The notes beneath the pieces were generated by a model. It made no database searches and was not told the DNA's origin. It saw only the letters and a program-made list of their open reading frames with translations. The position numbers were made by a program, and so were the translations under genes. DNA of 55,499 nucleotides from Sneathiella sp. (GTDB taxonomy: Bacteria > Pseudomonadota > Alphaproteobacteria > Sneathiellales > Sneathiellaceae): contig NZ_NZMB01000022.1 of the NCBI RefSeq assembly GCF_002694385.1, positions 1 through 55,499 on the forward strand, read 5' to 3'. Below are positions 1,663 through 13,649 of this stretch, piece after piece; positions within the stretch are counted from its first letter, which is position 1; each line of letters begins with the position of its first letter.

Positions 1663-3090
1663 TCAGTCTTCCCGCCATTCATCACCCAGCAGCTCCGGCT
1701 CGGCATAGGCGTAGAGATCCGCGAGATGCCGGTCGGCATCCTCCGTGAAAAAGGCGCTCGCCAGCGCATTCACCAGCCGCTCCACTCCCACATTGACGCC
1801 CGGAATATCGGCGCTGATGCCGGAATGGCTGAGCATGCTGGCCGCGTTGAACAGATGGATGCGCGCCAGATGCGGCGCCGCGCCCGGCTCCTTTTCCAGA
1901 AACTCGAAACCGGGGCCGAGATAGGGGAAGCGGCCGAGCTCGTCACTCTCCAGCCCGGCGGGCGGCATGAAATGATCGCGCCACAGCCGGATATCGCCTG
2001 CATGTGCGGCCAGCTCCGGCTGCCGCGTCATGTCAATGGCATAGCCGGTACCGAGGATGACAAAATCGCCCGTGAATTTCCTGTCCCCGCTGTCAAGCTG
2101 CACCGCGCCATCTGTCACCGCCGCCTGGCGGACAGAGACGCCCTTGTGGATATGGAAATTGTCATATTCCTTCAGCCGCAGCATGGAGAGACGGGGCGGC
2201 GCGATACGGCTTGCCAGGCTGTAATGAAGAAACCGCCAGCGCCGTGCGTCATCGAGGGCGAGGGTTCCGCGGAAAAAGCCGGGATAGGCTGTATTCTTGA
2301 ACTTGTTGACGCGGGGAATCTCGGTAGCGCGCATCAGCAGATGCACCTCCCCTGCGCCCTGTTCCAGCGCCACCGCGGCACTATCCACCGCCGAGGCTGC
2401 CCCGCCGATCACCAGCACCCGTTTCCCCGCCATTGCAGAGAAATCAATCGCCTCCTCCGTATGGGCGATGAGAGACGGCGGAATATCCTCGAAAACCGCC
2501 GGGATGCGGCATCCGCCAAAGGCGGCGCGCCCGGTCGCCAGCACGAGATGACGGGCGAGCAGAGTGACGGGCCCGTCCGGCCCTTGAAGGTGCAGCCGGA
2601 GGAGGTCTCCTTCCGGCTCAATCCGCTCCAGCCGATGATTATTCTCTGTCGGGATGTCCAGGATATGGCGGTACCAGATCAGATACTCCATCCACATTTC
2701 ACGCGGGATATACTCGAAGCTTTCCCACATCTCGCGGCCATATTTTGCCACGCACCACATGCGGAAGGTGAGGTTCGGCAGGTTGAGATTGGGCCCGGCA
2801 AGCCGTTTCGGCGAGCGCAGGGTGCGCATGCGCGCTGTCGTCACCCACGGCCCTTCTGCCCCGGCGTCCCGCGCATCAAATATGCGAAAATTCTGGATCC
2901 CCTCGCGCCGCAGGCCAAACGCCGCGGCCATGCCGCACATGCCGCCGCCGATGATCACCACATCGGCGACACTGGCGCCATCCGGCCCCGACATCGGCTT
3001 CACCCAGTTATCCGGCGGATAGTTAAGGTAGCGGAAATCCCGCCTGATCTGGCCTTCGAGCTGATCGAGACCGCTTCTTCCCGTTACCAT
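1663..3090 (-). CDS. FAD/NAD(P)-dependent oxidoreductase, flavin monooxygenase-like
   Basis: Protein of 475 aa with two dinucleotide-binding folds. The FAD site is VIIGGGMCGMAAA (near residues 45-57), a second nucleotide site VLVIGGAASAVDSAA lies near 220, and the ATG-type motif LVLATGRAAFGG is near 185. This layout is that of class B flavin monooxygenases and related pyridine-nucleotide oxidoreductases. The substrate cannot be read from sequence. The N-terminus has about 40 residues before the first Rossmann strand. It is transcribed away from the rfb cassette, and the two share a 216-bp gap. It could take part in sugar or secondary metabolism, but the adjacency alone does not show that. Confidence 0.8.
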   Translation of the reverse strand: MVTGRSGLDQLEGQIRRDFRYLNYPPDNWVKPMSGPDGASVADVVIIGGGMCGMAAAFGLRREGIQNFRIFDARDAGAEGPWVTTARMRTLRSPKRLAGPNLNLPNLTFRMWCVAKYGREMWESFEYIPREMWMEYLIWYRHILDIPTENNHRLERIEPEGDLLRLHLQGPDGPVTLLARHLVLATGRAAFGGCRIPAVFEDIPPSLIAHTEEAIDFSAMAGKRVLVIGGAASAVDSAAVALEQGAGEVHLLMRATEIPRVNKFKNTAYPGFFRGTLALDDARRWRFLHYSLASRIAPPRLSMLRLKEYDNFHIHKGVSVRQAAVTDGAVQLDSGDRKFTGDFVILGTGYAIDMTRQPELAAHAGDIRLWRDHFMPPAGLESDELGRFPYLGPGFEFLEKEPGAAPHLARIHLFNAASMLSHSGISADIPGVNVGVERLVNALASAFFTEDADRHLADLYAYAEPELLGDEWRED

Positions 3091-3181: not shown

Positions 3182-3306
3182 CTGCTTATTATCTTCGGTT
3201 CCGCCAAAGGCGCGCAATCTTGACACCGCCCGCCGATATTGAAATAAGCATATCAATGGAATGTGCCGTCGCGGCACAGGCGGCTCCGGGCAGTAAGGGG
3301 AAATCG

Positions 3307-4080
3307 GTGAAAGCAGTTATTCTGGCCGGCGGGCTCGGCACCCGGATATCGGAAGAATCCCATCTCCGGCCGAAGCCCATGATTGAAATCGGCGAATATC
3401 CGATCCTGTGGCATATCATGAAGATCTATTCCCATTACGGGATCAATGATTTCATCATCTGCCTCGGCTATCGCAGCTATGTCATCAAGGAATATTTCGC
3501 CAACTATTTCCTGCACCGCTCCGACGTCACCTTCGATCTGGAAAATAACGAGATCACCTATCATACCGCCAAGGCGGAGCCGTGGCGCGTCACCCTCGTC
3601 GATACGGGGGAGGCGACCATGACCGGCGGGCGCCTGAAGCGCGTTGCCGGATATCTCGATCCTGATGAGACCTTCTGCATGACCTATGGCGATGGCGTGG
3701 CCGATGTGGATATCGCCGCCCTTATTGCCTTTCACAAGGAACAGGGGCGCGAGGCGACCCTGACCGCCGTCGCCCCGCCCGGCCGCTTCGGCGCCGCCAT
3801 CATCGAGAATAACAAGGTCCGGCAGTTTACCGAAAAACCGGCGGGCGATAATGGCCTGATCAACGGCGGCTTCTTCGTGCTGGAGCCGTCGGTGCTCACA
3901 CGTATTTCCGGCGATGACATGCCGTGGGAGAATGACCCGCTGACCGGCCTTGCCGCCGATGGGCAGCTTGCCGCCTATCACCACCGCGGCTTCTGGCAGC
4001 CGATGGATACCTTGCGCGAGAAGAACCTTCTCGACCAGCTCTGGAAGAGTGGCAAGGCGCCGTGGCGGGTCTGGCGTTGA
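3307..4080 (+). CDS. rfbF: Glucose-1-phosphate cytidylyltransferase
   Basis: Makes CDP-glucose from CTP and glucose-1-phosphate, the entry step to CDP-linked deoxysugars. The 257-aa length is typical of RfbF. The nucleotidyltransferase signature GGLGTR is at 8-13 with the conserved Lys at 23 (RPKPM), followed by the metal-binding region [10 protein letters not shown] (near 128) and EKP (near 173). The GTG at 3307 was chosen because AAGGGG lies 6 nt upstream and the protein then begins exactly at the conserved KAVILAGG strand. An upstream in-frame ATG at 3256 would add 17 unconserved residues. It heads a five-gene cassette and is followed after 16 nt by rfbG. Confidence 0.92.
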
Positions 4081-4096
4081 CGGCGGGGATCATGTC

Positions 4097-5170
4097 ATGA
4101 CCGCCGCCGCCGTCAATCCCGATTTCTGGAACGGCCGCCGGGTTCTGCTGACCGGCCATACGGGCTTCAAGGGGGCGTGGGCCGCGCTCTGGCTCGCCAA
4201 GATGGGCGCAGATGTCACCGGCATTTCCCTCGCCCCGGACGGGGAGTTTTCCCTGTTTGGCATACTACAGCCCCGCCTTTCCCTTACCTCCCATCTTCTC
4301 GACATCCGCGATAAAGGCGCCCTTGCCAATGCCGTGACGGAGGCAAATCCGGAGATTGTCCTGCATATGGCGGCGCAGGCGCTTGTCCGCCGTTCCTACC
4401 GGGAGCCGGAGGAAACCTTCGCCGTCAATGTCACCGGCAGCATAAATCTGATGGAGGCATTACGCGATCTGGAAGGGCTCAAAGCGGCGCTGATGATCAC
4501 CAGTGATAAAGTCTATCGCAATGACGACAGCGGCCGCGCCTTTGTGGAAAGCGACCCACTCGGTGGGGATGATCCCTATTCCGCCTCCAAGGCGGCGTGC
4601 GAGATTGCCGTCGCCTCCTACGCCAAAAGCTTCTTTTATGACAACAATGTGCCCGTCGCCACTGCGCGCGCCGGCAATGTCATCGGCGGCGGTGATTTTT
4701 CGGAAGACCGGCTGATCCCCGATATCTGGCGCGCCGCCCGTGACGGGGAAAGCGTCACTTTGCGATATCCCGGCGCCACCCGCCCCTGGCAGCATGTGCT
4801 GGAATCCGTCTCCGGCTATCTCCTCTATCTTCAGGCCCTGGCCATGGATAAAGGCGCAGGGGTGCCGAAGGCGCTCAACTTCGGGCCGGAGAAAATCGAA
4901 AATCTCACCGTCGGGGAAATTGCCCGCGATGTGCAGGCGGCCTTTGGCATCCCTGATGACTGGTCACTGGAAAAGGCCGCGCAGCCGCCGGAGAAAACCC
5001 ATCTCGCCCTCGACGCCTCCCTCGCTCGCAAGACCATCGGCTGGCGGGCCAACTGGACGGCCGAAACCGCCCTTGCCCGAACCGTGGACTGGTACAAGGC
5101 ATTTAACGAAGGCGCAGATATGTATGACTTTACCCTGTCCCAGATTACCGCCTATGAGGCCCGTTCATGA
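4097..5170 (+). CDS. rfbG: CDP-glucose 4,6-dehydratase
   Basis: NAD-dependent extended short-chain dehydrogenase that converts CDP-glucose to CDP-4-keto-6-deoxyglucose. At 357 aa it has the normal family length. The nucleotide-binding motif TGHTGFKG lies at 19-26, the SDKVY segment at 136-140 and the catalytic YSASK at 161-165. The TGHTGFKGxW form is typical of CDP-glucose rather than dTDP-glucose dehydratases, which agrees with the RfbF partner. The last codons overlap the next start by 4 nt (ATGA), implying translational coupling. No rfbH (C-3 dehydrase) gene is present, so the 3-hydroxyl should be kept. Confidence 0.92.
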   Translation: MTAAAVNPDFWNGRRVLLTGHTGFKGAWAALWLAKMGADVTGISLAPDGEFSLFGILQPRLSLTSHLLDIRDKGALANAVTEANPEIVLHMAAQALVRRSYREPEETFAVNVTGSINLMEALRDLEGLKAALMITSDKVYRNDDSGRAFVESDPLGGDDPYSASKAACEIAVASYAKSFFYDNNVPVATARAGNVIGGGDFSEDRLIPDIWRAARDGESVTLRYPGATRPWQHVLESVSGYLLYLQALAMDKGAGVPKALNFGPEKIENLTVGEIARDVQAAFGIPDDWSLEKAAQPPEKTHLALDASLARKTIGWRANWTAETALARTVDWYKAFNEGADMYDFTLSQITAYEARS

Positions 5171-6405
5171 CCCGCCCCTTGAGTTGCCGTTTCTGTCATC
5201 GGGAACTGACCCATACATTTGTCGATCTCGGCAGAACGCCGCTCGCCAATAGCTATCTGCGCGAAGAGCGGGATATCGCGCGGGAGAAATCCTATCCGCT
5301 GCATGCCCGCGTCTGCGACGGCTGCTTTCTGGTACAGGTGGAGGATGTGGTCCCGGCCACCGAAATCTTCTCCGATTACGCCTATTTTTCCTCCTACTCC
5401 AGCAGTTGGGTGGAACATGCGCGCCGCTATGCGGAGAAGATGATCACCGCCCTTGATCTCGGCCCCGCCTCGCTGGTGGCAGAGATTGCCAGCAATGACG
5501 GCTATCTGCTGCGCCATTTCGTTGAAAAAGGCATCCCCGTGCTCGGGATTGAACCGGCCGCCAATGTCGCCAAAGTGGCGGAGGACGCGGGCGTCAGGAC
5601 CGATGTCGCCTTCTTCGGGGTGGAGACGGCTAAACGCCTCACCGCCAGCGGGCCCCGCGCCGATCTGATGGCTGCCAACAATGTCATGGCGCATGTGCCG
5701 GATATCAATGATTTTATCGGCGGGGTGCCGATCCTGCTGAATGAGGAGGGCGTCTTCACCATCGAATTTCCGCATCTTCTCAACCTGATTGAGAAGGTGC
5801 AGTTCGACACCATCTATCATGAGCATTATTCCTATCTCTCCCTGCTGACGGTGGAGAAAATTCTCGCCGCCCACGGCCTGCGCGTCTTTGATGTGGAGGA
5901 ACTTGCAACCCATGGCGGCTCGCTGCGCATCCATGCCTGCCATCAGGCTTCCAAAAAACATTTAGAGACGGATCGGCTAACGGCGCTGCGGGTGAAGGAG
6001 GCCGCCGCCGGAATGGGAACCCTCGCGGCCTATGAGGGCTTCACGCCGAAGGTGGAACATGTGCGGGACCAACTGCTCGCCTTTCTGCAACAGGCGAAGG
6101 CGGCGGGCAAGAAAGTCGCTGCTTACGGCGCGGCGGCGAAAGGGAATACATTGCTGAATTTCTGCCATATCGGGCCCGAGCTGATCGAATATGTCGTTGA
6201 CCGCAATCCGGAAAAGCAGGGAACCTTCCTGCCCGGCAGCCATATCCCCGTGTTCGATCCCGCGAAAATCCGCGCCGAAAAGCCCGATTACGTGCTGATC
6301 CTGCCGTGGAACCTGGCCGATGAAATCTCCCGCGATATGGCGGATATCCGCGCCTGGGGCGGGCAATTCGCCATTCCCATCCCCACGCTCACGATCCTGC
6401 CATGA
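5167..6405 (+). CDS. SAM-dependent C-methyltransferase of a nucleotide sugar
   Basis: Protein of 412 aa with the three-part build of sugar C-methyltransferases such as TylC3 and TcaB9. The N-terminal zinc-binding domain has Cys7, Cys10, Cys50 and Cys53. The SAM-binding core contains AEIASNDGYLL (near 103-113). The active-site segment YHEHYSYLS (near 218-226) matches the Glu-His pair used as base in this family. The C-terminal Rossmann-like domain contains AAYGAAAKGNTL (near 320). The enzyme is expected to methylate a carbon next to the 4-keto group, C-3 in characterised relatives. It overlaps both neighbours by 4 nt, placing it between the dehydratase and the epimerase in one pathway. Regiochemistry is inferred. 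Confidence 0.85.
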   Translation: MTRPLSCRFCHRELTHTFVDLGRTPLANSYLREERDIAREKSYPLHARVCDGCFLVQVEDVVPATEIFSDYAYFSSYSSSWVEHARRYAEKMITALDLGPASLVAEIASNDGYLLRHFVEKGIPVLGIEPAANVAKVAEDAGVRTDVAFFGVETAKRLTASGPRADLMAANNVMAHVPDINDFIGGVPILLNEEGVFTIEFPHLLNLIEKVQFDTIYHEHYSYLSLLTVEKILAAHGLRVFDVEELATHGGSLRIHACHQASKKHLETDRLTALRVKEAAAGMGTLAAYEGFTPKVEHVRDQLLAFLQQAKAAGKKVAAYGAAAKGNTLLNFCHIGPELIEYVVDRNPEKQGTFLPGSHIPVFDPAKIRAEKPDYVLILPWNLADEISRDMADIRAWGGQFAIPIPTLTILP

Positions 6406-6941
6406 TCTTTATCGAAACGAAAATCACTGGCGCCTATCTGATCGAACCTGAACGGCTTGAGGATAACCGCGGGCATTTCACCCGCAGCTTTTGCAGCCGC
6501 GAATTCGCCGCCGCCGGGATCAGCTTCCTGCCCGTGCAGAGTAATCTCTCCCACAATAAAGCGGCATATACATTACGTGGAATGCACTTTCATGCGGCGC
6601 CTTATGCGGAGACGAAGCTGGTGCGCTGCACGGCCGGTCGCCTGTTTGATGTGATCGTCGATATCCGCGACGGCTCGCCCAGCTACGGCCGCTGGGTCGG
6701 CGCGGAACTCAGCCGCGACAACGGCTCCGCCCTGTTCATTCCGGCGGGCTGCGCCCATGGCTTCCTGACGCTGGAGCCGGACACCGACGTCTTCTACCAG
6801 ATGAGCCCGCATTTCACGCCGGGCTATGAGCGCGGCTTTCGCTGGGATGATCCGGACATCGGCATCGACTGGCCTGGTACGCCCGCCGTGATATCGGACC
6901 GCGACGCCGCCCTGCCCCTCCTGCGGGAGGTGTCTCCATGA
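6402..6941 (+). CDS. dTDP-4-dehydrorhamnose 3,5-epimerase family protein
   Basis: Cupin-fold epimerase of the RmlC/RfbC family, 179 aa. The conserved LRGMHFH motif contains the catalytic His62, and EDNRGHF at 20-26 matches the family's N-terminal signature. The characteristic FIPAGCAHGFL turn lies near 111-121. In this cassette the substrate should be a CDP-4-keto-6-deoxy sugar after or before C-methylation, and the reaction is probably epimerisation at C-5 and/or C-3. It overlaps both the methyltransferase and the reductase by 4 nt. A similar fold is used by 3,4-ketoisomerases, so the exact reaction is not certain. Confidence 0.8.
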   Translation: MIFIETKITGAYLIEPERLEDNRGHFTRSFCSREFAAAGISFLPVQSNLSHNKAAYTLRGMHFHAAPYAETKLVRCTAGRLFDVIVDIRDGSPSYGRWVGAELSRDNGSALFIPAGCAHGFLTLEPDTDVFYQMSPHFTPGYERGFRWDDPDIGIDWPGTPAVISDRDAALPLLREVSP

Positions 6942-7822
6942 GGCGCTGTCTTGTCACCGGCGCGACCGGTTTTATCGGCCCGCATGTGGTGCGCCGCATG
7001 CTGGATTGCGGCTGGGAGGTGATTTCTCTCTCCCGCCATGAAGAGCTTCCGCTCGCCGGGGCGCATCGGCATATCGCCGTTGATCTTCATGACATCCCCT
7101 CAATGGAAATGGTGATCAAGGAGGCGGCGGCGAGCCACCTCATCCATCTCGCGTGGGAGGCGACGCCCGGCAAATTCTGGCACTCGACCGAGAATTTCCA
7201 CTGGGTTTCAACCAGCGCCTATCTGCTGGATGCTTTTGTGAAAACCGGCGGAAAACGGGCAGTGCTGGCCGGGTCCTGCGCCGAATATCAATGGCAGCCG
7301 GACGCGCTGGTTGAGGATCGTTCAACGGCGGAGGGGGACAGCCTTTACGCCGCCTCGAAGCTCGCCTTCCGGCGGCTTGCCCACACCATCGGCCAGGAGA
7401 TTGACCTTGTCTGGGCGCGGCTGTTCTTCCCCTATGGCCCCGACGAGGACGCCAGCAAGCTCACCTCCTACATCTTCCGGGAACTCTGCGCCGATCGCCT
7501 GCCCACCTTCCAGACGCCCGGCAACGGCATTGATCTGATCCATGTGACGGATGTGGCCCGCGCGCTGGAACGGCTGGCCGTCTCCGACCTTACCGGCACC
7601 GTCAACATCAGCAGCGGCCGGGCCGTGCTGCCCCCTGAAATTGCACTGGAAGCCGCGAAACTCCTCGGCAAGGAGGCGCTGGTCCCGCCGCTCACCGAAT
7701 TGGTGGAAGAGACATCGCTGAGCACCGCCCTTTATGGCGATAACCGCCGGTTAATGTCCGTCTGGGAGGGCGCGCCGATGCTCTCCCTTGTGGATGGGCT
7801 TAAAAGCTATCTGAAAGTCTGA
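6938..7822 (+). CDS. NAD(P)-dependent epimerase/dehydratase, probable CDP-4-keto-sugar reductase
   Basis: Extended SDR protein, 294 aa, with the nucleotide-binding motif TGATGFIG at 7-14 and the catalytic YAASK at 137-141. As the last gene of the cassette it is the best candidate for the 4-ketoreductase that finishes the deoxysugar. The alternative is an epimerase acting before it. The start overlaps the previous stop by 4 nt. The gene ends 9 nt before the end of the convergent sulfotransferase gene, with no clear terminator between them. Confidence 0.8.
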   Translation: MRRCLVTGATGFIGPHVVRRMLDCGWEVISLSRHEELPLAGAHRHIAVDLHDIPSMEMVIKEAAASHLIHLAWEATPGKFWHSTENFHWVSTSAYLLDAFVKTGGKRAVLAGSCAEYQWQPDALVEDRSTAEGDSLYAASKLAFRRLAHTIGQEIDLVWARLFFPYGPDEDASKLTSYIFRELCADRLPTFQTPGNGIDLIHVTDVARALERLAVSDLTGTVNISSGRAVLPPEIALEAAKLLGKEALVPPLTELVEETSLSTALYGDNRRLMSVWEGAPMLSLVDGLKSYLKV

Positions 7823-7831
7823 CCCAACCGC

Positions 7832-8635
7832 CTAGTCCGAAGCCGCAAGGCTTTCCCGTGTCTTGATAAACAGCGGATCACCGGCAAATTCAGGATAAAA
7901 ATCGAGCATTCGGGAAAGCGCCTCTTTCCCCCGGCGGGAAAGGTTCCGCCCGCGCCCGACCTTGCCCACATTGAAGCGGGTTTTCGTGCTTTCCATGGCC
8001 CGTTCCAGCGCGGCGTTGATCTCCGCATCCTCCGCCGGGCAGTTCGCGCGCTGCAGCACATCGCGCATCACGCTGGCCGTATCCGCCGTCAGGTCATCGA
8101 AATCATACAGCTCCCCGATGCCCGCGGTGCGCCATCCCGCATAAAAATTGAGATACCACGGCAGGGCGAGGCGAACAATCGCCTCCTCAAACTCGTCATC
8201 GGGCATGTTTTTCTGCAAATCGCTGAAGAAAGCGTAAGGCACCGGTTCCGGATCGGCGCGCAGGTGATCGCGCAGGCTGATGGCGCAATCCGCCAGGTTG
8301 CGGATCAGGACGGCAAAGGTGACGCCATATTTGCGCCCGTAAAATTCCGTCGCCCGGCTATGGCGCAGATGGCATTGCGCGACATATTTCCGCCGGTTGT
8401 AATGGGATAGCTGAATGGGGCAGAGTTCCTGCTCGCGCTGTTCCCATGCGGGGACGAGGGTTGCCTGCTCCATCCCCGGCAGCTCGGCAAGCGCCGTCGC
8501 CAGAAAGGTCGAGGCCGTCTTCGGCATGCAGGCGATCACGATATGCGGACGTTTCGGCGGCAGCAGGCGGCCCGTCACCCCGTCCACCGCCAGATAGGCC
8601 CCGTTAAGCAGCCGGTTAGCCCTTTTCTCTTTCAT
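7832..8635 (-). CDS. Sulfotransferase family protein
   Basis: Protein of 267 aa with the 5'-phosphosulfate-binding loop PKTASTF at 38-44 directly after the first beta strand (IVIACM), and a later strand/helix LIRNLADCAISL that fits the 3'-phosphate-binding region. This is the build of PAPS-dependent carbohydrate and lipid sulfotransferases. No signal peptide is seen, so it should act in the cytoplasm on an activated or lipid-linked acceptor. It is the third gene of a minus-strand run with a CmcI-like methyltransferase and a glycosyltransferase, suggesting sulfation of a surface glycan. GAGGATG upstream of the ATG gives a usable ribosome binding site. The acceptor is unknown. Confidence 0.75.
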   Translation of the reverse strand: MKEKRANRLLNGAYLAVDGVTGRLLPPKRPHIVIACMPKTASTFLATALAELPGMEQATLVPAWEQREQELCPIQLSHYNRRKYVAQCHLRHSRATEFYGRKYGVTFAVLIRNLADCAISLRDHLRADPEPVPYAFFSDLQKNMPDDEFEEAIVRLALPWYLNFYAGWRTAGIGELYDFDDLTADTASVMRDVLQRANCPAEDAEINAALERAMESTKTRFNVGKVGRGRNLSRRGKEALSRMLDFYPEFAGDPLFIKTRESLAASD

Positions 8636-8669
8636 AACCGCATCCTCATAACGTCTGAAATTCCATGCC

Positions 8670-9923
8670 CTATTTCCTCAGCCTGCTGACATTGCGCCGC
8701 ATTTCGAGGCCTTTCACAAGTTGTTTGAACGTTGCGATCAGCTTGTTGGCGGACGGGGAATAGGGCTTTCCCGTCACCGTCTGTATCCAGGCGACAACCG
8801 ACGCGACCGTCTGCAAGTCCTTCTTTCCGATCAGGGATTTGCGTTTTTTGGATGGTATTTCACCATCGGCGGCAGTTTTCTCCCGCTCTGTCAGATCCGC
8901 CGGATCCGCAAGAGGGACGCGGCTGTAGGCGGGGTCCATCTTCAGAAAAAAATCCTCCAGCACGTTCCAGCAGCGGTTCTGCTTCGGAAATTTGCGCATG
9001 TCGGCAATCACCACCTCGCGCCAGCGGGCATGGTCAATCACCGCGCGGCCCGCCAGATGATCCTGATTGATCCGCATCAGATTGGCATAGACATAGGCAG
9101 GGATGGAGCGGATGCGGAGATCAATTTCCGGCGCGATGCGGTCCGCCTCGGCCAGTTCCGTGAAATTCTCGGCGATTTTGGTCTGCTGGTCCGTATGCTT
9201 TGTCGGCGCATTCATGGCGGAGCCGTTACTCTTCTCCCCCGCGCCGGCGATGGTCACCGGATTACGGATCCACAAAAGCGATTTCGCCACCGTCAGGTTG
9301 GTCAGCGCCGTGTTCACATCGGGGATCTGGCCCTGAAAATATTCCCCGCCCGTTGCCTTCACCGCATCAATCACCCGGCGCGAAACGCAGCCATGATAGA
9401 TATTCGCCCCGTCGCGATAGTTGATCAGGCGGGCGGCGCAGAAATCCTCAAAAACCTGCTGCGGATCAAGCCGTTTCAGCGGCCCACAGAAATCCCGGTA
9501 GCGGAATTTGAGCAGGCCATCCTTCGGGCCATTTTCCTTATGCGGCCAGATATAGGTGATATGCCGCCAGATCACCACATCGGGCGCCTGTTTATGGAGA
9601 AGATGACGCAGGGTCGCAATCCCGTTCGGGACGACCCCATCATCATCGCCGATGAAAATGACGTAATCCCCGGACGCATGGGACAGCGCGAATTCGAAAT
9701 TCTGCCGCATGCTGATATCGCGCCCCGGATGCACATAGCGAAGGCGCGCATCGCTGATTGCGGCCACCACATCGCCGGTGTCATCAACGCTGTTGTTGTC
9801 GCTGACCACCACCTCGATATCCGGATCGGGGGAGGCAAGGCAGGTCTCAAGACAGTATTTCAGGAATTCCGCACGGTTACGGGTCGGCACCACAATACTG
9901 ATTTTCAGGGGGTCATTGCCCAT
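8670..9923 (-). CDS. Glycosyltransferase family 2 protein
   Basis: Protein of 417 aa with a GT-A domain in the first 200 residues: ISIVVPTRNRAEFLK (8-22), the nucleotide-binding SDNNSVDDT (41-49) and the metal-binding GDDD at 92-95 in IFIGDDDG. The remaining 200 residues are less conserved and may contact the acceptor. It would transfer a sugar from a nucleotide donor in the cytoplasm; donor and linkage are unknown. The deoxysugar made by the facing cassette is a reasonable candidate donor by location only. I chose the ATG at 9923; a TTG codon directly before it is the alternative. The gap to the upstream CmcI-like gene is 13 nt. Confidence 0.82.
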   Translation of the reverse strand: MGNDPLKISIVVPTRNRAEFLKYCLETCLASPDPDIEVVVSDNNSVDDTGDVVAAISDARLRYVHPGRDISMRQNFEFALSHASGDYVIFIGDDDGVVPNGIATLRHLLHKQAPDVVIWRHITYIWPHKENGPKDGLLKFRYRDFCGPLKRLDPQQVFEDFCAARLINYRDGANIYHGCVSRRVIDAVKATGGEYFQGQIPDVNTALTNLTVAKSLLWIRNPVTIAGAGEKSNGSAMNAPTKHTDQQTKIAENFTELAEADRIAPEIDLRIRSIPAYVYANLMRINQDHLAGRAVIDHARWREVVIADMRKFPKQNRCWNVLEDFFLKMDPAYSRVPLADPADLTEREKTAADGEIPSKKRKSLIGKKDLQTVASVVAWIQTVTGKPYSPSANKLIATFKQLVKGLEMRRNVSRLRK

Positions 9924-9936
9924 CAAAACGCGCCCG

Positions 9937-10764
9937 TCACACCCGTTTCAGGAAGCCGTCCGGCGTGACGGAAAACATCAGCTTGTCTTCCAGCGCCTGG
10001 TTATTCTCAAAACGCAGCGGCGCGCCGTCTGCCGCCAGTATCTTGCCGGTTTCAAGCTGTTTCTGATATTCGAACACGGCGCTTTTCGGGCTGTTGCCGG
10101 GGTGCCATGGGCGATCGGGATAGAAATCCTCCGGCATGTCCTCAACGATGGTATCAAAGACAAGGCAATAGCTGCCGGGGCTCGTCAGCGGGGCATAGGC
10201 CTCCAGCTCCGCCAGCACATGATCATGGGTATGATTGCTGTCGAGGCTGATGAGGATGCGGGAATAGCCTTTCGCATAGTCCTTGACCTTGGCCACCATT
10301 TCCGCCGCGATGGAGGAGCCTTCGAACATGTCGATCCGCCCGGCCATGGGATGCGCCTCAATCGCCGCGCGGTTATGGGCGCGGATGTCGATATCAATGC
10401 CAAGCACGCGGCGCTTCGGTTTCGCGGGGTCCAGCATCGTGCCGCTTTCCACCGCCTCGCAATATTCCAGCAGGGACAGCATCGCCGCGCTCTGGATAAG
10501 GGAGCCGCCATGGGCGATGCCCGTCTCAATAATCAAATCCGGCTTGACCTCCCAGACAATCTCCTGAAAGGCGACAATATCCGTCGGAAGCTGGATGATC
10601 GGCCGGCCGAGGGACGAAAAATTATACACATAACGCTTCGCGAGCGCCTCTTTCAGCCAGTCGTGGGACAGCTTCTTCCACGCCGTTTCCTGCTGATAGG
10701 AGCGGATCGTCTCCGTCACTTCCTGCTGAAATTCAACAATCGGATCGGCTTTGTCTGTCGGCAT
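9937..10764 (-). CDS. Cephalosporin hydroxylase (CmcI)/rhamnosyl O-methyltransferase family protein
   Basis: Protein of 275 aa in the family that contains CmcI and mycobacterial rhamnosyl O-methyltransferases. The SAM-site motif ETGIAHGGS lies at 80-88, followed by a region rich in acidic and histidine residues (LDSNHTHDHVL) and FDTIVEDMP near the end. Despite the hydroxylase name, members of this group in glycan loci are best viewed as SAM-dependent O-methyltransferases. The ATG at 10764 is preceded by GAGG at good spacing; the longer open frame to 10926 is unconserved. It is the first gene of the CmcI/GT2/sulfotransferase unit. Methylation of a sugar is inferred from context. Confidence 0.75.
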   Translation of the reverse strand: MPTDKADPIVEFQQEVTETIRSYQQETAWKKLSHDWLKEALAKRYVYNFSSLGRPIIQLPTDIVAFQEIVWEVKPDLIIETGIAHGGSLIQSAAMLSLLEYCEAVESGTMLDPAKPKRRVLGIDIDIRAHNRAAIEAHPMAGRIDMFEGSSIAAEMVAKVKDYAKGYSRILISLDSNHTHDHVLAELEAYAPLTSPGSYCLVFDTIVEDMPEDFYPDRPWHPGNSPKSAVFEYQKQLETGKILAADGAPLRFENNQALEDKLMFSVTPDGFLKRV

Positions 10765-10917
10765 GGATACCTCGAAATTTTCCCCAAACGGCCGCAATGG
10801 GCGGCGGGCGGCCCGCGCCGCGCCCCCTGTTTCTAACCGTCCTTCAGGGGTAAAACAACCGATTTGCGGCCCGTATATGCGCCGGGCGGCATTTTCGGCA
10901 ATTTTCACAGGATTTTT

Positions 10918-10946
10918 TTGCCGCAAGCGGTGAAAATTACTATGCT
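10918..10946 (+). promoter_or_regulatory. Promoter of the SDR/EamA gene pair
   Basis: TTGCCG (10918-10923) and TATGCT (10941-10946) are separated by 17 bp and lie 45 nt before the SDR start codon, which has a good AGGAGAAG ribosome binding site. This is the only clear promoter in the 226-bp divergent gap. Confidence 0.5.
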
Positions 10947-10990
10947 GTCGTAACTTTTCGCAAACCCGGCGGCTTCAGGAGAAGAAAGAA

Positions 10991-12034
10991 ATGACGAGGC
11001 AAGATCTGGTGACGGTAACCGGCGCCAGCGGCTTTATCGCGCTGCATACAATCCGGCAGCTTCTGGCCGCAGGTTATGCCGTGCGCGGCACGCTGCGGTC
11101 CATGGACAAGGCCGACGGCATTGCCCGCGCCCTCGCCGCCCGGGGGGATGTGTCGCATTTGAGTTTCGCCCGCGCCGATCTCACCGCCGATGACGGCTGG
11201 GACGCCGCGCTTGAGGGCGCGGATTATCTCATCCATATGGCCTCCCCCGTCCCGGCGGAGGCACCGAAAGATGAAAACGACCTGATTACCCCGGCGCGGG
11301 ACGGCGCCCTCCGTGCGCTCCGCGCCGCCTGTGACGCGGGCGTGAAGCGCATTGTCATGACCTCCTCCATCGCGGCGATATCGGGCGGGCATGACAAATC
11401 ACAACAGCTCGACGAGGGCTGCTGGAGCGATGTGACAAAGGACATCGGCGCCTATCAGAAAAGCAAGACCCTCGCGGAAAAAGCAGCCTGGGATTATATC
11501 GCTGCCCTGCCCGTTGAAAGCCGCCCCGAATTTGCCGTGATCAATCCCGGATTCGTGCTCGGCCCCGTGATCGGCGGCCAGGCCAGCGCCTCCCTCGAAA
11601 TTGTCCGCCGGCTGATGGCGCGGGAGGTGCCGGGCGTGCCCAATATCGGCTTTTCCCTTGTCGATGTGCGCGATGTCGCCGCCGCCCATGTCACCGCCCT
11701 CATTCATGACGCAGCGCCCGGGAGCCGCTTCATCTGCGTTGCCGAAAGCATGAGTTTTCGCGAAATCGCCCGCCATCTCGCCGATTATCTCGCCCCGCAA
11801 GGCTATAAAATCCCAACGCGGCCGGTGCCGGACTGGCTGGTGCATTTTCTCGCCCTGTTCAGCCCGACCTTCAAACTGGTCGCCACCCGGCTCGGCCCGG
11901 CGACGGCCTTCGACACCCGCGCCGCGCGAACCCGGCTTGACTGGCAGCCGCGTTCCATGGTCCAGTCGCTGTTTGATACCGCCGACAGCCTCGGTGCGCA
12001 GAACATCACCCGCCCGGGGAGAACTCCGTCATGA
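10991..12034 (+). CDS. Extended short-chain dehydrogenase, dihydroflavonol-4-reductase-like aldehyde reductase
   Basis: Protein of 347 aa with the nucleotide-binding TGASGFI at 10-16, SSIAAISGG near 125-133 and the catalytic pair Y155/K159 in YQKSK. The spacing and the NPGFVLGP segment match the DFR-like branch of extended SDRs, which reduce aldehydes or ketones with NADPH. The bacterial substrate is usually unknown. AGGAG lies just upstream of the ATG. The stop overlaps the start of the EamA transporter by 4 nt, so the two are probably cotranscribed, though a functional link is only suggested. Confidence 0.85.
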   Translation: MTRQDLVTVTGASGFIALHTIRQLLAAGYAVRGTLRSMDKADGIARALAARGDVSHLSFARADLTADDGWDAALEGADYLIHMASPVPAEAPKDENDLITPARDGALRALRAACDAGVKRIVMTSSIAAISGGHDKSQQLDEGCWSDVTKDIGAYQKSKTLAEKAAWDYIAALPVESRPEFAVINPGFVLGPVIGGQASASLEIVRRLMAREVPGVPNIGFSLVDVRDVAAAHVTALIHDAAPGSRFICVAESMSFREIARHLADYLAPQGYKIPTRPVPDWLVHFLALFSPTFKLVATRLGPATAFDTRAARTRLDWQPRSMVQSLFDTADSLGAQNITRPGRTPS

Positions 12035-12921
12035 ATACCCGGATGTCCCCGCATCTGTTCGGCCTGCTTGTGACCGCCGCCGGCGTCATCGTCCTGTCGC
12101 CGGACGGGCTGCTGGTCCGTCTGATCGCCACCGACAGCGCCAGCCTTCTGTTCTGGCGCGGGCTGTTTTTCTCAGCGGCGATCTTTGCCTTCTATCTCCT
12201 GCGCTATGGCGCCGGTAAAGTTGTAAGCCTGCTCACAAACATGGGCAGGCGGGGCGTGATTGCCGCCCTGTTCTATAGTCTCAGCAGTGTCTTTTTCGTA
12301 CTTGCGATTACCCATACCTCCATTGCCAATGCGCTCGTCATCATTGCCACCGCTCCCCTTTTCGCTGCGGTTTTCTCCTGGCTGTTTCTCAAAGAATCGG
12401 TTGCGTTGCATACCTGGATTGCCATCCTTGTCTGTATCGGCGGGATCAGCCTGATATTCATGGGCAGCCTGGGCGGCGGCAGCCGCTTCGGCGATTTCTG
12501 CGCGCTGGGCGCGGCCTGCATGATTTCCGGACAGTTCACCACGGTGCGCCATGCGAAGGATCTCGACATGGTGCCCTCGCTCGGTATTGCCGGGCTGTTC
12601 ATGGCGGCCTTCGCCCTGCCCTTTGCAACCCCGCTCGCGGTCTCCGGCGAAAGCTTCGCCTATCTCGCCCTGCTTGGCCTGGTGGTACTGCCCCTCGCGC
12701 TGGCCCTGATCACCATCGGCCCGCGCTATATCTCCGCCCCGGAAGTCAGCCTGCTGATCCTGCTGGAAAGCATTCTCGGCCCCTTCTGGGCCTGGCTGGC
12801 GCTCGATGAACTGCCGACGCAGGAAACCGTTTTCGGCGGCATCATCGTCATTTCCACCCTGATCATCCACACCGCCCTGACGCTGCGGCGGAACCGCCGC
12901 CTCGCCCGTCAGGCGATCTGA
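12031..12921 (+). CDS. DMT superfamily (EamA) membrane transporter
   Basis: Protein of 296 aa made almost wholly of hydrophobic segments, consistent with ten transmembrane helices in two EamA repeats. The first repeat ends near the glycine-rich MGSLGGGSRFGDF (near 147-159). Such proteins export small metabolites or amino acids across the inner membrane. The substrate cannot be told from sequence. Start and previous stop share ATGA. It ends 8 nt from the convergent cell wall hydrolase gene. Confidence 0.85.
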   Translation: MNTRMSPHLFGLLVTAAGVIVLSPDGLLVRLIATDSASLLFWRGLFFSAAIFAFYLLRYGAGKVVSLLTNMGRRGVIAALFYSLSSVFFVLAITHTSIANALVIIATAPLFAAVFSWLFLKESVALHTWIAILVCIGGISLIFMGSLGGGSRFGDFCALGAACMISGQFTTVRHAKDLDMVPSLGIAGLFMAAFALPFATPLAVSGESFAYLALLGLVVLPLALALITIGPRYISAPEVSLLILLESILGPFWAWLALDELPTQETVFGGIIVISTLIIHTALTLRRNRRLARQAI

Positions 12922-12929
12922 ACGGATGG

Positions 12930-13649
12930 TTAGATTGTCTCTTCGCGATAAAAGATGTGGCTGCCCACCTGACCGAGCTTGCTGAGCCGGACGCTCCATC
13001 CCGGCGAGACATAGGTCGCGTGATAATGGGTCGCCCGCTTGGCAACCCCGCTGCGTTCCCCCTTCATGACCAGCGCCACCACTTTCAGGGATTTCTCCCA
13101 CGCCGCCGTATTGGTCGGGCGATCCGGTAGCCCGTCACAGGCAAAGGAAAACTGGCATCTGTGCTTGCGTTCCTGATTCTGGAAGACAACATCACAGGCG
13201 GTATCCGGATAACGCGTATCGGCAATGCGGTTGAGAATCACCTCCGCAATGGCGATCTGGCCCACCAGCGGTTCACTGCGGGCCTCGAAATACACCGCCT
13301 GGGCGATGCACATTTCCTGACGGGTGAACGGCCGACCGAACAGATCAACGGATTGCAGAGAGGTATCCAGGGAATCGCCGCTTGGCATATCAAGGTTGGG
13401 AATCTCCCTCATTTTGCCCGGCAGGGCCGACAATTCTGAAAACTTTCTGTCAAGACGGGCGAGCGACGCCTGTTTAAGCGCACCGGAATAAACATACTGG
13501 TCAATGGGCCGCGCCGATGCGCCGATCTGAAACAGCAGCGTCAGGCTGACCGCCGACACCGCGAGAATACTGATCGCCCCAAAAATCATCCCCGCTTCAT
13601 GGGAGCGAGGGGTCAATTTTGAGAGAAGCTTGTTCCACGGGCTTTGCAT
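12930..13649 (-). CDS. Cell wall hydrolase, SleB-like (Hydrolase_2 domain)
   Basis: Protein of 239 aa. An N-terminal cytoplasmic tail (about 20 residues, basic) is followed by one transmembrane helix (near 21-43), so the rest is periplasmic. The C-terminal 130 residues hold the SleB/Hydrolase_2 domain: AQAVYFEARSEPLVGQ contains the conserved Glu of this lytic-transglycosylase-like family, followed by AEVILNRI and a C-terminal ATHYHATYVSPGW motif. These enzymes cut peptidoglycan. In alphaproteobacteria without spores they are thought to act in wall remodelling. The gene is preceded by a long AT-rich gap. Confidence 0.88.
   Translation of the reverse strand: MQSPWNKLLSKLTPRSHEAGMIFGAISILAVSAVSLTLLFQIGASARPIDQYVYSGALKQASLARLDRKFSELSALPGKMREIPNLDMPSGDSLDTSLQSVDLFGRPFTRQEMCIAQAVYFEARSEPLVGQIAIAEVILNRIADTRYPDTACDVVFQNQERKHRCQFSFACDGLPDRPTNTAAWEKSLKVVALVMKGERSGVAKRATHYHATYVSPGWSVRLSKLGQVGSHIFYREETI

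Follow-up and report, generated by a model that had tools for sequence, protein, structure and literature searches.

A glycosyltransferase, a CmcI-type methyltransferase and a predicted sulfotransferase beside a deoxysugar cassette in Sneathiella

The DNA analysed here, hereafter the window, is a stretch of 55,499 nt from Sneathiella sp. (contig NZ_NZMB01000022.1), whose genome is labelled G000 among the genomes of the genus. Three minus-strand genes, encoding a predicted sulfotransferase, a family-2 glycosyltransferase and a methyltransferase of the CmcI type, converge in it on a plus-strand deoxysugar cassette and probably act on a rare branched sugar, which they would attach, methylate and sulfate. 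Homologues of the three are found together with the cassette in five of 24 genomes of the genus, an association that exceeds chance. Moreover, related species carry other sugar-decorating genes in this slot, so that its content is likely to alter cell-surface chemistry.

Organization of the locus

The three minus-strand open reading frames (ORFs), at 7832-8635, 8670-9926 and 9937-10764, are all open. The middle one has a TTG start at 9926 and an ATG at 9923, the latter giving a glycosyltransferase (GT) of 417 residues (8670-9923), and the CmcI-type ORF starts with an ATG that has a GAGG just upstream. The genes lie 34 and 13 nt apart, and the stop of the sulfotransferase gene lies 9 nt from the stop (7822) of the last cassette gene, so that the two operons are convergent; coordinates, gaps and convergence are as given in a preliminary description of this DNA. 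The 9-nt gap (7823-7831) holds no terminator-like site, and terminator and promoter scans of 7500-11100 gave nothing above chance level.

The five plus-strand genes of the cassette begin with a glucose-1-phosphate cytidylyltransferase of the RfbF type (3220-4080; TIGR02623, 2.1e-137) and a cytidine diphosphate (CDP)-glucose 4,6-dehydratase of the RfbG type (4097-5170; TIGR02622, 2.6e-126). Both equivalogs are matched over cut-off, which assigns the cassette to the CDP-glucose deoxysugar pathway. Since the RfbF ORF opens with TTG and its family match begins only at residue 30, its true start is probably near 3300. The next gene (5167-6405) encodes a sugar 3-C-methyltransferase (PF08421, PF08484) related over its full length (residues 6-412) to solved enzymes of this kind, 4rv9 being the best match in the Protein Data Bank (PDB; 4.3e-77), followed by 5t64 and TcaB9. 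The cassette is completed by an RmlC-type 3,5- or 5-epimerase (6402-6941; TIGR01221, 2.3e-51, over cut-off) and by a short-chain dehydrogenase/reductase (SDR) presumed to be the 4-ketoreductase (6938-7822; PF01370, 1.2e-28). By the logic of pathways of the deoxythymidine diphosphate (dTDP)-mycarose type, the product is likely a CDP-3-C-methyl-6-deoxyhexose, which would belong to the L series if C-5 is inverted by the RmlC homologue. The equivalogs and the relatedness of the 3-C-methyltransferase thus support a cassette for a C-3-methylated CDP-deoxysugar, in agreement with the branched sugar proposed earlier.

The three predicted modifying enzymes and the supply of sulfate

The GT matches PF00535 (7.7e-21) and a chondroitin synthase across residues 8-102 (4.7e-7). 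The 275-residue protein encoded at 9937-10764 belongs to the CmcI/rhamnosyl O-methyltransferase family (PF04989, RMNT_CmcI; 278.5 bits against a cut-off of 23.2, 4.5e-83); it falls below the rhamnosyl O-methyltransferase equivalog NF045824 (72.7 bits, cut-off 400), and at 0.01 no PDB sequence matches it.

The third enzyme (7832-8635, 267 residues) is missed by single-sequence scans, and its family is revealed by homologues. Alone, it matched no Pfam or NCBIfam model over cut-off: Sulfotransfer_3 reached 15.8 bits against 27 (E 0.017), Sulfotransfer_1 gave no match, and no Stf0 match was reported in the Pfam scans. Its single-sequence PDB matches, to FimG, a universal stress protein and an ATP synthase subunit, were taken as chance. 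Among the seven members of a homologue alignment (A1), Sulfotransfer_1 was matched by five and Sulfotransfer_3 likewise by five (E up to 1; best 2.3e-10), and the homologue profile retrieved from the PDB the cytosolic-type sulfotransferase (SULT) SULT7A1 (5x2b, 1.7e-5), with other SULTs weaker. Furthermore, an AlphaFold2 model built from 12 sequences was confident (predicted local distance difference test, pLDDT, 86.6; predicted template modelling score, pTM, 0.84). A Foldseek search with it returned SULTs (4e-7, template modelling score 0.64), most of them solved with adenosine 3',5'-bisphosphate, and VIA-align superposed it on 5x2b with a Z of 15.2 and a root-mean-square deviation of 3.4 over 218 residues, which indicates the fold of sulfotransferases dependent on 3'-phosphoadenosine 5'-phosphosulfate (PAPS).

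Residues of the predicted PAPS site are conserved as well. In a 12-row alignment (A2), which leaves out the homologues of G233, G246, G319 and G043 (four of the ten genomes with a subfamily match), P38, K39, S42, T43, H89, R112, D116, S120, R220, N222, G227, R228 and G229 are invariant; the sequences from outside the genus have 25-34% identity, yet keep the PAPS-site residues and the His position. Residues 36-46, CMPKTASTFLA (8498-8530, minus strand), align with the loop of SULTs that we take to be the 5'-phosphosulfate loop and include the invariant P38, K39, S42 and T43. In the profile alignment, residues 108-121 (8273-8314, minus strand), with R112, D116 and S120, presumably form the 3'-phosphate-binding segment, and H89 (codon 8369-8371, minus strand) corresponds to the His of the Thr-His-Leu stretch of SULTs, assumed here to be catalytic in those enzymes. 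Because the homologue profile and the predicted fold agree where single-sequence scans had failed, the protein is confirmed at this level as a predicted PAPS-dependent sulfotransferase of an unnamed subfamily. The three enzyme classes named in the preliminary description therefore hold. Searched against a plasmid collection, the sulfotransferase had no match at 1e-8.

PAPS can be made by the organism, since CysD (TIGR02039, 6.1e-162) and a bifunctional CysNC (NF004035, 1055.7 bits) are encoded side by side on another contig of the genome, in which adenosine 5'-phosphosulfate (APS) kinase is matched at 1.6e-70. In genome G031, one of two sulfotransferase homologues adjoins a CysD-like gene. Of 289 class members sampled, 147 have Sulfotransfer_3, as do two of 14 control genomes, so possession of a sulfotransferase says little about lifestyle. 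The hint at lifestyle earlier drawn from sulfated glycans is accordingly weak, and the use of a sulfotransferase as a rare lifestyle marker was rejected; the subfamily of the window, for its part, occurs in 10 of 385 class genomes.

Distribution within the genus

With a C-methyltransferase of at least 68% identity as its marker, the cassette is present in 16 of the 24 genomes; 17 match at 1e-20, the enzyme of G011, at only 38%, not being counted as cassette. All five cassette enzymes are seen in 12 of the 16; the locus is cut by contig ends in G002, G010 and G013, and no SDR homologue was found in G023. Strong matches to the GT (at least 54% identity) occur in seven genomes and weak ones (28-35%) in five more, the CmcI-type gene is matched in seven (at only 44% in G023), and the sulfotransferase in six.

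The cassette has all three genes by it in five genomes (G000 itself, G001, G013, G015 and G009), with the CmcI gene on another contig in G013 and the sulfotransferase gene inverted in G009. GT and CmcI genes are accompanied by two other genes, one without Pfam match and one encoding a methyltransferase, in G020 and G023, in neither of which the sulfotransferase was found. The remaining nine cassette genomes (G002, G003, G008, G010, G012, G017, G019, G021 and G022) carry a different module, made of another family-2 GT, a Methyltransf_24 protein and a protein without Pfam match, the families having been assigned on G017 and G003 proteins. Where it could be aligned, this second GT is 28-36% like that of the window over part of its length. 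Eight of these nine modules include one more protein, either a methyltransferase (Methyltransf_11) or one with a weak likeness to a methyltransferase (TIGR04371, under cut-off), and in G019 cassette and module lie on separate contigs. The view of the three genes and the cassette as a fixed unit was rejected on this comparison and on the border-gene tree described below: 5/16 cassette genomes have all three genes, 2/16 lack the sulfotransferase and 9/16 have the other module.

The preliminary description had also raised the occurrence of the three genes away from the cassette. This does not apply, within the genus, to the GT, whose seven strong matches are all in cassette genomes, and does apply to the sulfotransferase, found in other families and in G004, an 86% complete genome in which the cassette is absent. 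In the latter (L063, 1582-5612) the sulfotransferase homologue adjoins a HAD/cytidylyltransferase-like fusion, a methyltransferase-like ORF recognized by eye and an unnamed protein of 439 residues.

In the two genomes without sulfotransferase, the GT and CmcI genes have beside them a gene for a weakly kinase-like protein (L058, 8546-9673; L060, 12791-13909), without Pfam match in the G020 copy. The G020 and G023 copies reach LanKC at 2.6e-4 and 9.7e-5, far below cut-off, and an aminoglycoside phosphotransferase at 0.023; since the model of this protein (pLDDT 36.8) is useless, no claim is made of a swap of sulfate for phosphate.

History of the site

The locus is bordered on the left by an FAD/NAD(P)-oxidoreductase gene (1663-3090, minus strand; PF13738, 4.2e-15), whose homologue lies left of the cassette in nine genomes, that of the window included, with two extra genes between them in G001. 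To the right (10991-13649) follow genes for an SDR (10991-12034, plus), an EamA transporter (12031-12921, plus) and a cell-wall hydrolase (12930-13649, minus), and the EamA gene is found in 23 of the 24 genomes. A GlxA/AraC-type regulator and a PF09859 2-oxoglutarate-dependent oxygenase, families assigned on the G001 copies, are encoded in the locus of 11 other cassette genomes and are absent from the corresponding interval of the window (10765-10990).

A tree of five border genes was built for 23 genomes, G002 being left out for lack of genes, and 15 of its 20 inner branches are starred. It contains a clade of 12 genomes that all bear the cassette, although no single contig spans the locus in four of them (G008, G010, G013 and G019). 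On this tree, module type (GT plus CmcI or other) needs at least four changes among cassette bearers, and cassette presence at least four over all 23 rows. The right-hand border genes are kept without the cassette in G005, G018, G014, G011 and G007. Furthermore, at another site, the sisters G012 and G004 (support 99/98) have the same border genes enclosing, respectively, the cassette with the other module and the sulfotransferase with other genes.

The sulfotransferase falls into two allele classes, G000/G013 (71% identity) and G001/G015 (72%), with 52-55% across them, and in three of four comparisons with G000 (G001, G015 and G009, not G013) it is less conserved than either of the other two genes; the CmcI proteins of G000 and G001 are 84% identical. 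The five-border-gene tree joins G000 with G001 (100/96). Approximately unbiased (AU) tests on five taxa compared nine of the 15 possible trees. The sulfotransferase data reject every one of the nine that does not group G000 with G013 (AU at most 1e-4), and the best sulfotransferase tree is itself rejected by two border genes (AU 0.009). Exchange of sulfotransferase alleles is thus suggested, not proved, by the sequences.

Relatives beyond the genus

The 385 sampled class genomes, that of the window included, contain the CmcI-type gene (E 1e-40 or better) in 25 cases. Neighbourhoods were read for the best seven of the 24 others, and three of these (G264, G352 and G109) have a C-methyltransferase cassette nearby. 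The closest likeness is that of G264, from another family, in which CmcI and GT homologues (70% and 60% identity) converge on genes for an SDR, RmlC, a C-methyltransferase and a dehydratase, in the same layout as in the window; no sulfotransferase-like ORF is present in its 18-kb stretch. G308 has some cassette enzymes and no C-methyltransferase, and none of the cassette enzymes was seen in the stretches read of G260, G345 (both short) and G339; in G339 a sulfotransferase homologue and the CmcI gene lie some 6 kb apart. Since a cassette with a CmcI-type gene and no sulfotransferase was the finding in the stretches read of G264, G352, G109 and a Sinorhizobium plasmid, the O-methyltransferase looks like the long-term partner of the cassette, and the sulfotransferase like an accessory.

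Six sulfotransferase loci of other families were read, and at three of them (G302, G246 and G339) the neighbouring genes, some of them named by eye, are of glycan type; for G319 and G043 the context comes from the ORF list only. A plasmid of Peteryoungia desertarenae has a back-to-back pair of CDP-glucose cassettes that include class I methyltransferases (L138, 4892-12003), and one of the pair is followed by a family-2 GT gene.

Interpretation

The best reading, to which we give a probability of about 60%, is that the window holds one allele of a polymorphic surface-glycan locus, in which a glycan bearing a branched sugar is sulfated; that a surface saccharide receives the sulfate is suggested by the gene neighbourhoods. 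The plus-strand cassette would make CDP-3-C-methyl-6-deoxyhexose by cytidylyl transfer, 4,6-dehydration, C-3 methylation, epimerisation to the L series and 4-ketoreduction. The GT may then move this sugar, or its partner sugar, onto the glycan, the CmcI-type enzyme would O-methylate the glycan, and the sulfotransferase would add sulfate from PAPS supplied by the chromosomal CysD and CysNC. The residue on which each enzyme acts and any selective cause are likewise ones that we infer. The methyltransferase, and in part the GT, would be lasting partners of the cassette and the sulfotransferase an interchangeable end decoration, replaced or lacking in related species, so that strains would differ in surface charge and antigenicity.

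Several observations weigh against this reading. Flippase, polymerase, ligase and capsule-export families were not matched by any of the 29 window proteins scanned (19 + 10), the rest of the genome not having been searched for them, so the surface location is itself a deduction. PAPS genes are not specific to such loci, APS kinase being present in 11 of the 14 control genomes, and another sulfotransferase is encoded on contig C1 of the same genome. The closest folds are largely those of small-molecule sulfotransferases, and no glycan locus could be made out clearly at three of the six loci read in other families (G206, with one methyltransferase, G399 and G233). The association across the genus is one between related genomes. 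Nor do the five-taxon tests all point one way: by the Shimodaira-Hasegawa test the two border genes do not reject the best sulfotransferase tree (0.066), and neither GT plus CmcI (AU 0.13) nor the cassette (AU 0.15) rejects that tree. One tree that has G000+G013 (tree 6) is borderline for the sulfotransferase (0.048), is accepted by the two border genes (0.107) and is rejected once GT and CmcI join the data (0.019).

The acceptor may also be flagellin, the glycan built by cassette, GT and methyltransferase and modified by the sulfotransferase then being that of flagellin and not lipopolysaccharide or capsule. This possibility comes from G109, in which four cassette genes (no SDR), a DegT aminotransferase gene and a CmcI-type gene (43%) lie between those for FlgK, a flagellin-family protein and FliD, adjoined by a TPR/GT41 protein (L125, 3-17902), a locus that is possibly one for a flagellin glycan. 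The contig of the window (C11) has two strong flagellin genes (G000:C11:170668-173014), and flagellin is found in 22 of the 24 genomes of the genus; however, these two genes are some 160 kb from the locus, flagellar families had no match among the window proteins scanned, and no flagellar gene is annotated in the Sinorhizobium stretch with the same enzymes. We consider a flagellin acceptor improbable. Weak matches aside, flagellin ORFs measure 270-316 residues in the clade that has the cassette here, against 384-438 residues in the other clade; as length goes with the clade as well as with the cassette, it is not counted as evidence.

Chance recombination could instead have placed here a sulfotransferase that acts on a separate glycan, a lipid or a small molecule. 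Its presence without the cassette beside the HAD/cytidylyltransferase-like gene of G004, its two deep allele classes and the conflict of its tree with the border genes would fit such a history. On the other side, the gene adjoins the cassette in five of its six carriers in the genus, though inverted in G009, and three of the six loci read in other families have glycan-type neighbours; this explanation seems unlikely. It is very improbable that the protein has decayed or lost its activity and that its fold now serves another role: low conservation relative to its two neighbours and the lack of a Pfam match over cut-off could be cited for it, but the frame is open, the PAPS site and the His position are invariant in 12 sequences that go down to 25-34% identity outside the genus, and the model is a confident, complete fold.

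Extended further, the polymorphic surface-glycan locus might be a built-in glycotype switch, with a constant branched-sugar cassette at one site, decoration modules exchanged between species and the sulfotransferase swapped alone as one of two deep allele classes. Its product would be a 3-C-methyl-6-deoxy-L-hexose with sulfate and O-methyl groups, similar to CDP-linked vinelose, and sulfation would be an on/off surface charge under selection by phages or predators. Such a switch is doubtful. CDP-linked vinelose was described long ago from Azotobacter; vinelose is mentioned by no paper in the library searched, and one paper names cereose and cillose as CDP-sugars.

Comparison with known systems

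In fold, PAPS loops and His position the window's sulfotransferase agrees with cytosolic-type SULTs (PF00685), such as mouse SULT7A1 (5x2b), which act on small molecules; identity is only 11-17% in the fold matches listed, and the protein passes no family cut-off. Similarly, the 5167-6405 protein is a full-length relative of the D-mycarose 3-C-methyltransferase 4rv9, TcaB9 and 5t64, enzymes of dTDP-sugar antibiotic pathways, whereas its own place is in a CDP-glucose pathway.

Among sulfated-glycan systems, LpsS of Sinorhizobium meliloti is described as a lipopolysaccharide sulfotransferase of the Stf0 family, and hence an alphaproteobacterial sulfotransferase acting on a surface glycan (PMC12445080); the window's protein differs in being without a reported match to that family. 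The capsule cluster of Cobetia marina unites glycosyltransferases, PAPS genes and a sulfotransferase for one sulfated polysaccharide in a single large cluster, with the transporter and PAPS genes inside (PMC11766843). In the window's genome, by contrast, the PAPS genes lie on a separate contig, and the part scanned showed no exporter. Plasmid pSymB of S. meliloti (CP140934) carries within 8 kb rfbF, rfbG, rfbC, a class I methyltransferase gene, an SDR gene and a CmcI-type 'cephalosporin hydroxylase' (56% identical); gene order and strands differ, an acyltransferase and a transposase lie between, and the 37 kb shown, for which the PLSDB gene table is incomplete, include no annotated sulfotransferase. 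Beside these systems, the enzyme families of the window are ordinary and their modular arrangement is what informs. It provides a concrete set of genes on which the idea of a sulfated glycan containing a C-methyl branched sugar can be tested and, in related genomes with constant sugar genes and varying decoration genes, a natural series that could tell what purpose sulfation serves on a bacterial surface glycan.

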